A DNA stretch of 64,000 nt, from NCBI GenBank assembly GCA_036489885.1, contig DASXEW010000003.1, positions 1,612,001-1,676,000 on the forward strand. Direction: 5' to 3'. Position 1 is the first letter of the stretch. Each line of letters begins with the position of its first letter. This document shows positions 27,032 through 31,280 of this stretch, piece by piece. Source of the stretch: Candidatus Baltobacteraceae bacterium. Its GTDB lineage: Bacteria; Vulcanimicrobiota; Vulcanimicrobiia; Vulcanimicrobiales; Vulcanimicrobiaceae. The position numbers and the translations under genes are program-made. The notes below the pieces were generated by a model, which worked only from the letters and a program-made list of their open reading frames with translations, did no database searches and was not told where the DNA came from.

Positions 27032-29026
27032 TCAGCCGGCGGCGGCGGCCTTCGCAGCCATGATGGGCTCGTAGACTTTCTTCGCGACGAAGACGTCGAG
27101 CAATTGCGCGTCGATCTTGCCGCGCTCCGCGAATTCTTTCGTGAGGATGTCGAGTGCGCGCTCGATGCTCATGGCCGGCTTGTATGGACGATCGCTTGCG
27201 GTGAGCGCGTCGAAAACGTCAGAGATCGTTAGCATGCGGACTTGCGGCGCGATCTCTTCGCCGCGAAGGCCGCGCGGGTAGCCCGTTCCGTCGAGATGCT
27301 CGTGATGTCCGTACGCGACTTCGGCGACTTTCTGCCAGGGCGTCTGTTTCCACGGAATCTCGCGCAGGAAGCGGAACGACTGCGTGACGTGCTGTTCCAT
27401 CTTCTGGCGTTCTTCGGCGGAGAGTGAACCGCGCGGGATCTTGAGATACTCGTACTCGGCGGGCTCGAGTAAGGGATGTTCCTCGCCCAGCACGAGATAA
27501 TTGCGCTTAAGGAGCGCCTCCAGTGCTTCGCCGACACCTTCCGCGACGACGCGGGGCTCGTTTGCGGATTCGACTTGTTTCGCAAGCTCCGTCAGCTCGG
27601 CGACTGCATGCGACGTCGTCTCATCGATGCGTACGACCTCGTCTGCATCGGGCGCTATCCCGGTTCGCAGCAGTTGTAGTTTGCGTGTCGCTGCACGCAT
27701 TTGCATCTGCTCGATTGCGAGCAAGCAGCGCAGACGAATCATGTCGAGGCGGCCGTCGGGCAGTTTTTTGGCCTTTGCGAAAATGTATTCGGGGACAGCG
27801 ACCTTTCCAAAATCGTGCAGAAGCGCGGCGTAGCGCATTTCGCGAATATCGTCCGGCGTGAATTTGTGAACCGCAGCAGGACCTGCTTCGATCGTATTGA
27901 GCATCTCGGCTTGCGCGACCGTGAGCTCGGAAACGCGTGACGAGTGGCCTTGGGTCGCAGGGTCGCGGGCTTCGATCGCTTTTACCGACGCGGTTACGAA
28001 CTGTTCGAAAAGATTTTGGATCGAGTCGACGAGCTGTTTGTTGTCGATCGCGACACCGGCTTGAGAGCACAATGAGAGCAGCACGTGCTCGTGATGATCG
28101 GTGAACTCGCTGACGACTTCTTCCGTCTGGGTCGGCGATTCGAGGACAAGTTCGAAATCAGGTTTGTGATTGATCAGCTGAATGACGCCGACGATCTCGC
28201 CCAAGTAGTTGCGCATCGGCACGCACAGCACGGACTTGGTCCGATAGTTGTTATTCTTATCGAAGCTGTTGTTGAAGCGGTACTCGCGCGTGTCGCCGAT
28301 CTCGTATGCGTCCGGTATGCGCAGCACCTCACCCGTGATTGCGACGTAGCCCGAAATCGAAGCGCGCGAGAGCGGGATCATCGCGCCGAGATGTTTGCCC
28401 TCGTCGTACGGCCCGGTCTGTGCGACGGCAAAGCGGAGTTTCTTCTCGCCGTCCTGTTCCGTGATCAGGAAGAGACTGCCCGAATCGGATTGCGTAAGTT
28501 CGCGGGCCTTGCGCACGATCAGGCGTTCCAGGGATTCGATGTCACGTTCGGCGGAGAGTGCGACGCCGATCTGCAACAGTTGATCCGACTCGTCGATCAG
28601 ATCGCGCGCATTGTCGCGAAGCTCGAGCGTCCGCTCGGCGTTACGAACGGAAGCGAGCAGTGCGATCGAATCGATCGGGCGCGTTACCCATCCGCCGACG
28701 TGCTCGTTCTGGGCCAACCAAGCCGCATCGAAATCGCCGGGCTCCGAAAGAACGATGACCGTTCCGCCGGTCGCGTTTATCATTGAAAGTGCTCGATCGA
28801 TCGCATCATGATCGCCGAGCGCATGCAGGCGCTCCGAGTCGATCATATAGACGAGCGGCCCACCGGGAGCTGCCGCAATTGGGAATGTCAGATCCGCCGG
28901 ACGGCATTCGATATTCGCCGCTTCGAGGACGCTCTTACTCTCGCCAAGCTCCAGGCCGCGCGGATACACGAACAGCACTTTGGACTGAGGCTGCGTAAGG
29001 GGCAGCGCCCCTTCTAAAAGAGACAT
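27032..29026 (-). CDS. HD-GYP domain regulator with pseudo-receiver and GAF domains
   Basis: 664-aa probable cyclic-di-GMP phosphodiesterase or HD-type signalling protein. About residues 15-130 resemble a receiver domain, but the acidic pocket (VYPRG) and Lys (WVTRPID has Arg) are lost. A GAF domain (about 165-330; SVLCVPMRNYLGEIVGVIQLINH) and a split HD-GYP domain follow (AALLHDFGKVAVPEY, then after about 110 residues YGHHEHLDGTGYPRGLRG). That insert between the HD and GYP halves is larger than usual. ATG 29026 is chosen; the longer frame to 29569 is antisense to accB. No SD is obvious. Confidence 0.85.
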   Translation of the reverse strand: MSLLEGALPLTQPQSKVLFVYPRGLELGESKSVLEAANIECRPADLTFPIAAAPGGPLVYMIDSERLHALGDHDAIDRALSMINATGGTVIVLSEPGDFDAAWLAQNEHVGGWVTRPIDSIALLASVRNAERTLELRDNARDLIDESDQLLQIGVALSAERDIESLERLIVRKARELTQSDSGSLFLITEQDGEKKLRFAVAQTGPYDEGKHLGAMIPLSRASISGYVAITGEVLRIPDAYEIGDTREYRFNNSFDKNNNYRTKSVLCVPMRNYLGEIVGVIQLINHKPDFELVLESPTQTEEVVSEFTDHHEHVLLSLCSQAGVAIDNKQLVDSIQNLFEQFVTASVKAIEARDPATQGHSSRVSELTVAQAEMLNTIEAGPAAVHKFTPDDIREMRYAALLHDFGKVAVPEYIFAKAKKLPDGRLDMIRLRCLLAIEQMQMRAATRKLQLLRTGIAPDADEVVRIDETTSHAVAELTELAKQVESANEPRVVAEGVGEALEALLKRNYLVLGEEHPLLEPAEYEYLKIPRGSLSAEERQKMEQHVTQSFRFLREIPWKQTPWQKVAEVAYGHHEHLDGTGYPRGLRGEEIAPQVRMLTISDVFDALTASDRPYKPAMSIERALDILTKEFAERGKIDAQLLDVFVAKKVYEPIMAAKAAAAG

Positions 29027-29110: not shown

Positions 29111-29524
29111 GTGACATTCGACGACTTGATCGAGTCGAGGGTACGACCGCTCGCCGAAACGCTGGTCCGCGAGGGACTTGAAGTGGTCAGCATAGCCGAC
29201 GGTGAGATCGAAATTGAGCTTTCCCGGACTCTCGCACAGCCGGTTGAGCCGGCCGGAACCATAATCGAGGAAGCCTCCGGTCCCGCCCCCGAGTACGACG
29301 TCCTTACCTCCGATTTGGTCGGGCGGGTTCGCTTCTTGCGCCCGCCTGTGACGGCGGGTTCCGTCGTCGACGCCGATCGCGAGCTTGCTTTCATCGAGGC
29401 GCTTGGTATACGAAATCCGATCCGTTCGCGCGGTGCCGGACGTGTTGCCGTGGTCTACGTCGAAGAAGGTCAAGCTGTGGACTACGGCGCCCCCTTGTTT
29501 GCAATCGACCGCTCGCGTGTTTAG
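29111..29524 (+). CDS. Biotin/lipoyl-carrier-like protein without any lysine (AccB-like, not biotinylatable)
   Basis: 137-aa protein in the accB position, directly coupled to accC. The C-terminal half (about 63-137) aligns with the biotinyl domain: VGRVRF for the first half and IEALGIRNPI ... VVYVEEGQAVDYGAPLFAI for the second. In true BCCPs the motif is EAMK followed by two residues and Asn; here it is EALGIRN, so Gly99 replaces the biotinyl Lys. The whole protein contains no Lys at all. The DNA around 29405 shows an unbroken frame with no frameshift. It could be a structural or regulatory partner of AccC. GTG start at 29111. Confidence 0.8.
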   Translation: MTFDDLIESRVRPLAETLVREGLEVVSIADGEIEIELSRTLAQPVEPAGTIIEEASGPAPEYDVLTSDLVGRVRFLRPPVTAGSVVDADRELAFIEALGIRNPIRSRGAGRVAVVYVEEGQAVDYGAPLFAIDRSRV

Positions 29525-30878
29525 AAAAGTACTCGTTGCCAATCGCGGCGAGATTGCGCTGCGCATCATCCGCGCCTGCCGCGAGCTGGGCGTCGCGACG
29601 GTTGCGATTTTCAGTGAAGCCGATCGCTCTGCGCTTCACGTACGCCTCGCCGACGAAGCTTTTTGCGTAGGACCCGGACCCGCAGCGCGCTCGTACCTAA
29701 ACATTCCGAACATTATCTCGACTGCGCTCATCACCGGCGCCGATGCATTGCATCCGGGTTACGGATTTCTCGCCGAGAACTCGCGCTTCGCGCAGATCTG
29801 CACGGATCACGGCATCACGTTCATTGGTCCGACGCCGCGGGTCATCGAACAGATGGGCGACAAGGCGAACGCAAAGCAGATCATGCAAAGCGCGGGCGTG
29901 CCGACGATTCCCGGGAGCGGAATCCTCGCGACGCTCGATGAGGCTAAGAAAGCGGCTCGTTCGATAGGGTATCCCGTGTTGCTCAAAGCAACCGCGGGCG
30001 GCGGCGGGCGCGGGATGCGTGCCGTTGCACGTGAGGACGAGATCGGCAGGGCCTTCGCAAGCGCGCAAAGTGAGGCCGAGGTAAACTTTCAAGATGGGCG
30101 GCTCTATATGGAGAAGCTCATCGTTCATCCGCGGCATGTCGAGGTGCAGATCCTCGCCGATTCGCAAGGCGAAGTCGTGCATCTGGGCGAGCGCGACTGC
30201 TCGATACAAAAGCCCTCGCACCAAAAGCTGATCGAAGAAACGCCGGCTCCGGGTCTCGACGCCGATGTACGAGACGAGCTCTGCAGAGTAGCGGTACGCG
30301 CCGGACAAGCGTGCGGTTACACGAATGCGGGGACACTCGAGTTTCTGGTTGCGGGCGAACAGATTTATTTCATGGAGATGAACACGCGGATTCAGGTCGA
30401 GCATCCCGTCACCGAGCTGATCTACGGCGTCGATCTCGTCAAAGAACAGATTCGGATCGCGTTTGGTGAGCCGCTCGGTTTTGGTCAAGCAGATCTTTCA
30501 CCCCATGGTCACGCGATCGAGTGCCGCATCAACGCAGAAGATCCGGAGCGCGATTTCGCACCGGACGCGGGGATCGTGACCGCGGTCGAACTGCCCGGCG
30601 GCCCGGGCATTCGAGTCGATACGCATCTCTTCGCGGGTCTCTCGATTCCGCCGTATTACGATTCACTTTTGGCAAAGATTGTGGCCGTCGGCCGTACGCG
30701 CGCCTCGGCTCTTGCACGTATGGAACGCGCCCTCGCCGAAACCCGTATTGAAGGTGTAAAGACGACGGTTGCAATTTGCCGTCGAATCCTCGAAGATGCC
30801 CGATTTCAAGAAGGCGGCGTTCCGATCGATTTCCTCGATGAGGCGTTTATGCGCGAGCACGTGTTAACGGAAGCGTAG
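29517..30878 (+). CDS. accC: Acetyl-CoA carboxylase biotin carboxylase subunit (AccC)
   Basis: ATP- and bicarbonate-dependent carboxylation of biotin on its carrier for fatty-acid synthesis. The 453-aa ATP-grasp enzyme has VLVANRGEIALRIIRACRELG, HPGYGFLAEN, KATAGGGGRGMR (ATP loop), GERDCSIQKPSHQKLIEE, FMEMNTRIQVEHPVTE and a complete C-terminal domain. GTG 29517 overlaps the AccB-like stop; upstream frame to 29385 is overlap. It begins the accC-nusB-pbp1A-xseA chain. Its natural carrier must be encoded elsewhere if the neighbour cannot be biotinylated. Confidence 0.94.
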   Translation: MFRKVLVANRGEIALRIIRACRELGVATVAIFSEADRSALHVRLADEAFCVGPGPAARSYLNIPNIISTALITGADALHPGYGFLAENSRFAQICTDHGITFIGPTPRVIEQMGDKANAKQIMQSAGVPTIPGSGILATLDEAKKAARSIGYPVLLKATAGGGGRGMRAVAREDEIGRAFASAQSEAEVNFQDGRLYMEKLIVHPRHVEVQILADSQGEVVHLGERDCSIQKPSHQKLIEETPAPGLDADVRDELCRVAVRAGQACGYTNAGTLEFLVAGEQIYFMEMNTRIQVEHPVTELIYGVDLVKEQIRIAFGEPLGFGQADLSPHGHAIECRINAEDPERDFAPDAGIVTAVELPGGPGIRVDTHLFAGLSIPPYYDSLLAKIVAVGRTRASALARMERALAETRIEGVKTTVAICRRILEDARFQEGGVPIDFLDEAFMREHVLTEA

Positions 30879-31280
30879 ATGGCGTCACGCAAGCATGCGC
30901 GCGAATTGGCGCTGCAATCGCTATTCGGGGTCGAGATCGGGCACCGTCCGGCGCAAGACATGGTGATCGAAACGTGCGGTAGCGCTGATTCCGAACATCG
31001 CCGCTTTGTCGAGGACCTCGTCACCGGAACGCTCGATCACGCTGTCGAGAGCGACGCAGTGCTCACGCCGCTCCTGGACGGTTGGACGATCGAACGTCTC
31101 CCGACGATCGATCGCTTGCTGCTGCGTATGTCGGTTTTCGAGCTGATGCATCGCGAGACGCCCCAGGCCGTCGTGATCAACGAAGCCGTCGAGCTTGCGA
31201 AAAAGTTTTCGACCGATGAGTCGCCGCGCTTTGTGAACGGCGTGTTGTCGAACGTTACCAAATCGGGTGCGCGCGCGTGA
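30879..31280 (+). CDS. nusB: Transcription antitermination factor NusB
   Basis: 133-aa all-helical factor that binds boxA RNA with NusE (S10) in rRNA antitermination. Visible motifs are SRKHARELALQSLF at the start, RLPTIDRLLLRMSVFEL and VINEAVELAKKFSTDESPRFVNGVL. ATG 30879 follows the accC stop without a gap. Its end overlaps pbp1A as GTGA. Confidence 0.94.
   Translation: MASRKHARELALQSLFGVEIGHRPAQDMVIETCGSADSEHRRFVEDLVTGTLDHAVESDAVLTPLLDGWTIERLPTIDRLLLRMSVFELMHRETPQAVVINEAVELAKKFSTDESPRFVNGVLSNVTKSGARA

Follow-up and report, generated by a model that had tools for sequence, protein, structure and literature searches.

The gene accB* in the stretch of DNA analyzed here (the window, 64,000 nucleotides from a Candidatus Baltobacteraceae bacterium) codes for a paralog of the biotin carboxyl carrier protein (BCCP) that lacks the acceptor Lys. 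This paralog is co-encoded with the biotin carboxylase AccC across the phylum and is under selection, and the same genomes have a complete BCCP gene at another locus. By analogy with plant BADC, AccB* is rather likely a non-catalytic subunit of acetyl-CoA carboxylase that replaces some of the BCCP in the AccC oligomer and helps to assemble or tune the enzyme. The closest relatives of accB* are found in MAGs of Candidatus Eremiobacterota (WPS-2/UBP12). The members of this phylum live in soil, and their accC neighbour is the look-alike, with the gene of the working carrier lying at a different site; naming the accC-linked gene accB would therefore mislead throughout Eremiobacterota. It is at acetyl-CoA carboxylase that carbon becomes committed to fatty acids, and its limitation in bacteria is only partly understood.

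The accB* frame is intact and begins with GTG, no other start being listed for it. As a preliminary description of the window had claimed, the translated product has no Lys at all; it includes 14 Arg. The turn motif of AccB* is IEALGIRNPIRS, and the claim that Gly99 (codon 29405-29407) takes the place of the Lys was confirmed by alignment, as this Gly is aligned to the biotinyl Lys of both E. coli BCCP and the separate AccB of the same genome. The further claim that the protein is unable to accept biotin or lipoate holds as well, since it has no Lys and the Gly is kept in orthologs. A role as a lipoate carrier is ruled out by the want of any Lys for lipoyl attachment at the hairpin turn. AccB* matches Pfam Biotin_lipoyl (PF00364) above the cut-off, and with the NCBIfam BCCP profile TIGR00531 it scores 36.8 bits, below the curated cut-off of 115.2.

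Features of the accB*-accC locus in the window (positions are those of the window)
Feature	Position	Strand	Basis or remark
accB* (accB-like; BCCP paralog without biotinyl Lys, 137 aa)	29111..29524	+	frame, profile matches, orthologs
N-terminal helix, residues 3-21	29117..29173	+	AlphaFold model; alignment to 4hr7_B (E. coli AccB)
Beta-hairpin, strands 25-30 and 33-38	29183..29224	+	model, alignment, PMC11077971
Biotinyl-domain fold, residues 62-133	29294..29509	+	model; Z 12.8 to 1bdo
Site of 5-residue thumb deletion	29338..29339	+	conserved Gly to EA.K motif is 25 vs 30 residues
Turn motif EALGIRNPIR, replacing EAMK(L/I)(M/F)NEI	29396..29425	+	alignment, conservation count
accC, biotin carboxylase, 453 aa, active-site loop CSIQKPSHQK	29517..30878	+	8-nt overlap with accB*
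nusB-like gene	30879..31280	+	named by inspection; next in the conserved accB*-accC-nusB-PBP1A order
GAF/HD-GYP-like gene, divergent from accB*	27032-29026	-	named by eye

The accB* stop is overlapped by the GTG start of accC at 29517, confirming the tight coupling of an intact frame to accC that had been described. The order of the four genes from accB* to PBP1A recurs across the phylum among the loci that were read, and AccC is encoded immediately downstream of the look-alike wherever the contig is long enough. One exception was seen, the 3.4-kb contig L137, where two frames share the look-alike between them. On the other side, the GAF/HD-GYP-like gene and accB* likely have a promoter region in common. 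The active-site loop of AccC differs from the canonical CSxQRRHQK by a one-residue insertion in which RR becomes KPS (or KPG/KPA). The altered loop is present in families f1 and f3 wherever it was read; distant families have the canonical form, as do the other biotin carboxylases read from the same genome.

A profile of the Gly-type protein has relatives in 140 of the 149 phylum genomes at E 1e-3, a count that takes in true AccB paralogs, orthology having been checked on individual loci. In the two nearest families (f1 and f2), the accC-adjacent copy has Gly at the biotinyl place in all 62 unique orthologs; conservation of this Gly was a check that the preliminary description had proposed. This Gly sits within a newly fixed motif (RELAYVEALGIRNPVR), with the flanking residues R-6, E0, L+2, R+5, N+6, and P+7 invariant or nearly so in the same orthologs. 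Such invariance points to neither chance nor sequencing error, and the alternative first raised, an error that once corrected would restore EAMK, does not hold. The gene is also under purifying selection (median dN/dS 0.11-0.34) and has orthologs phylum-wide, so the view that AccB* is retained as a protein stands. Although the catalytic Lys is gone, as might be expected of a decaying gene or an assembly error, the phylum-wide orthologs, the invariant Gly, and the dN/dS values refute both a pseudogene and a sequencing error, leaving this explanation with virtually no probability.

The total absence of Lys is not kept among relatives, as only 22 of the 62 orthologs are Lys-free and the others have up to 4 Lys. 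Lys absence was accordingly rejected as a conserved trait; Lys depletion does hold. Lys makes up 0.7% of the look-alikes, 3.0% of the separate AccB proteins, and 3.5% of AccC, with Arg at 11.9%, 5.9%, and 7.0%, respectively. The Lys-free state of the window's AccB* is the extreme of a family-wide trend.

Scanning 84,980 species for the exact Gly motif, a search blind to other Lys-less motifs, gave 46 related loci among 53 pattern matches. The titles of these 46 are nearly all Eremiobacterota, WPS-2, UBP12, or plain "bacterium"; three are Alphaproteobacteria. An Eremiobacterota-type gene is present in L115, L121, and L137, records titled Rhodospirillales or Hyphomicrobiales, which are probably mislabelled or mixed MAGs. 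A plasmid search for AccB* relatives returned distant biotin-domain proteins and nothing closer.

In E. coli, AccB autoregulates accBC. AccB* could similarly be no stable subunit but a sensor of free AccC or apo-AccB, and cause repression or attenuation of the accB*-accC operon. Its gene is the first of the operon and adjoins a divergent promoter region, and the protein is Arg-rich like its family and keeps its N-terminal part. However, the Pfam search of AccB* gave no DNA-binding domain, and DNA binding would not account for the gathering of the conserved residues at the tip of the carrier; an autoregulator is thus an unlikely reading.

The true BCCP, the search for which had been proposed in the preliminary description, is an intact EAMK AccB encoded at C3:618313 (L009), away from accC. 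The separate AccB has both the EAMK(L/I)(M/F)NEI motif and the thumb intact. Its profile has matches in 126 of 149 phylum genomes and in 79 of the 85 good ones, nearly always as one copy, at a threshold unreached by accC-adjacent copies among the matches listed. All separate AccB copies read have EAMK and none adjoins accC. The separate accB lies 3' of hisS in the five loci with readable neighbours, and among the loci read hisS-accB recurs across the phylum. The window's genome also encodes accD/accA (C3:1714380-1715701), has one match for biotin protein ligase, and codes for four other biotin carboxylases with their own fused or adjacent biotinyl domains. As these four are self-supplied, the window's accC would be the natural acetyl-CoA carboxylase subunit, and if so its partner AccB must be the hisS-linked copy. 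In the genomes G060-G063 (f9) and G142-G144 (f16), some of them >95% complete, neither the look-alike nor the separate AccB was found at the thresholds used; these bacteria may have another route to malonyl-CoA or no fatty acid synthesis.

The two types of carrier likely trace to a single event. In a tree built without the motif columns and with E. coli as the single outgroup, all 52 sampled accC-adjacent proteins form one clade (support 100/86) and the 30 separate AccB proteins another (95/78). The two are sister clades, suggesting one old duplication, which in the present sampling came before the radiation of the phylum. The tree has one change of place and at least four Lys/non-Lys changes inside the adjacent clade. 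A second loss is that of the thumb, where exactly five residues are gone in 33 of 33 sampled members of f1, f2, and f3, the window's class; all separate AccB proteins and E. coli BCCP have 30 residues at this stretch. The majority of distant families keep about 30 residues there despite Lys loss, so the Lys was probably lost before the thumb.

Outside the two nearest families, the biotinyl place is less uniform. The accC-adjacent copies of f3 have Lys in 8 and Arg in 6 of 14 members. For families further away, 19 loci were read, and there the residue is Gly (9), Asn (7), Ser (1), Arg (1), or Lys (1), with Lys in one ortholog of the distant family f4. The tip motif varies by family as well (GIRN, GIRY, GVHQ, NL, RL). 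The preliminary description had staked its reading on relatives being without a biotinyl Lys in the orthologous gene; this is true of all 62 f1 and f2 orthologs and fails for some f3 members and the one f4 ortholog. Judged by their sequences, the f3 and f4 orthologs with Lys might still carry biotin. One could then argue that some of the phylum has kept the protein as a carrier, the EALKL form of f3 being biotinylated and the Gly form a local loss. The Lys of the eight f3 members fits such a scenario, but close relatives switch between the two residues (Arg in L061 beside Lys in L063), and Lys that alternates with Arg is unlike the behaviour of an obligate biotin site. Moreover, the five thumb residues are missing from all f3 members and all 14 f3 genomes also encode a separate AccB, making continued carrier function quite improbable; either way, the protein encoded in the window would be read as before. 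The f3 accC-adjacent proteins also have a C-terminal tail, absent from f1 and f2, that ends in EPPR(I/L/M) or similar.

An AlphaFold model of AccB* (pLDDT 87) consists of the N-terminal helix, a hairpin at residues 25-38, and a biotinyl domain with Gly99 at its turn, the linker before this domain being modelled with low confidence. Among solved folds, the model comes nearest to that of the E. coli BCCP domain, with Z 12.8, and to the BCCP of the E. coli BC-BCCP complex. The look-alike profile aligns with full-length E. coli BCCP over residues 24-176 of 4hr7_B (E 1.1e-14), N-terminus included. AccB* is thus like bacterial AccB/BCCP (TIGR00531; E. coli 1bdo, 4hr7) in its fold, its N-terminal helix-hairpin, and its gene place before accC; it is unlike them in having no acceptor Lys, no thumb, and a TIGR00531 score under the cut-off. 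In Chloroflexus aurantiacus BC1, the hairpin alone joins two BC dimers as a tetramer and raises BC activity, with the carrier core unneeded (PMC11077971). Judging from the model, the AccB* hairpin may correspond to the one with which BCCP builds the BC-tetramer barrel of BC1. The BC1 BCCP domain (8HZ4) shares with AccB* this N-terminal beta-hairpin, there tetramerising BC (PMC11077971), but differs in being fused to BC and biotinylated (EAMKM). With the helix-hairpin retained and the Lys and thumb gone, AccB* appears to have kept the binding and oligomerising parts of BCCP and lost those that carry biotin.

Given the operon coupling and the homologous hairpin, the helix and hairpin of AccB* would bind AccC. 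AccB* might then fill one or more BCCP places in the BC-BCCP hairpin barrel, with true AccB from the other locus joining it in the same oligomer. The Gly/Arg-tipped domain would fix or cap the number of active carriers per AccC oligomer, and the enzyme would be assembled or tuned as a result. The earlier suggestion of a structural partner or regulator of AccC is thus supported as far as sequence can go. Alternatively, AccB* may be a decoy that, at high abundance, keeps true BCCP from AccC by competition and so reduces the output of malonyl-CoA. Loss of the acceptor Lys with retention of the fold and hairpin would suit an inhibitor, and an inhibitor model was earlier proposed for plant BADC (PMC11926652). 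However, the authors working on plant BADC dispute that model (PMC11926652), and inhibition would be constitutive, given that almost every genome couples the gene strictly to accC, so we regard a decoy as improbable. As AccB* is seldom missing and its translation keeps pace with that of AccC, assembly, with AccB* as glue, is slightly favoured over inhibition. The strongly conserved, new EALGIRNP motif could also mean that the Gly/Arg tip has a different partner, either a ligand or a protein such as the signalling protein PII, tying acetyl-CoA carboxylase to nitrogen or energy state; in Synechocystis, BCCP is bound by PII (PMC5080355). The lack of a uniform tip motif among families argues against such a retargeted domain, which seems very unlikely.

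The closest functional parallel to AccB* as a non-catalytic subunit may be in plants. Plant BADC also has a Gly near the biotinyl-Lys place, which is a lead only. BADC is a BCCP-like, unbiotinylated protein of the plastid heteromeric acetyl-CoA carboxylase that binds BC and BCCP, and a 2025 paper called it unique to plants (PMC11926652). Like BADC, AccB* is a BCCP paralog without a biotinylation motif in an organism that has a true BCCP; unlike BADC, it is bacterial, encoded in an accC operon, deleted for the thumb, and tipped with EALGIRNP. Binding to BC and BCCP has been shown for plant BADC only, and the likeness drawn here is from descriptions of the proteins, not sequence kinship. No plant BADC chain was found in the PDB with look-alike profile A1 or with a short, approximate BADC-like fragment. 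The epsilon subunits of actinobacterial acyl-CoA carboxylases are not known to have a biotinyl fold. They are similar to the proposed AccB* in being small, non-catalytic, and assembly-aiding (cited in PMC11926652). Our search of the open-access literature found no bacterial precedent for a biotin-free BCCP look-alike.

A bolder version of the subunit reading is possible, if rather doubtful. A two-subunit carrier system would have been fixed before the phylum radiated, with biotinylated AccB and biotin-free AccB* in an obligate mixed hairpin barrel with AccC. The Gly/Arg tip would gate the AccC active site (changed class-wide from QRRHQK to QKPSHQK), and the system would either have arisen in bacteria independently of plant BADC, as its counterpart, or be its prokaryotic relative. 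If bacteria do have a phylum-wide, operon-coupled BADC equivalent, such carriers are old or have evolved two or more times, and Eremiobacterota would offer a simple system for deciding between assembly and inhibition as the role of a carrier that has no biotin.

At about 5542-6539 of L094 (G000:C3:1247k), two OadA-like genes belong to a second cluster with a biotin carboxylase. There a biotinyl protein is followed by another AccB-like frame with the motif IEAPQKSTPV, in which an uncertain alignment puts Gln at the Lys place.
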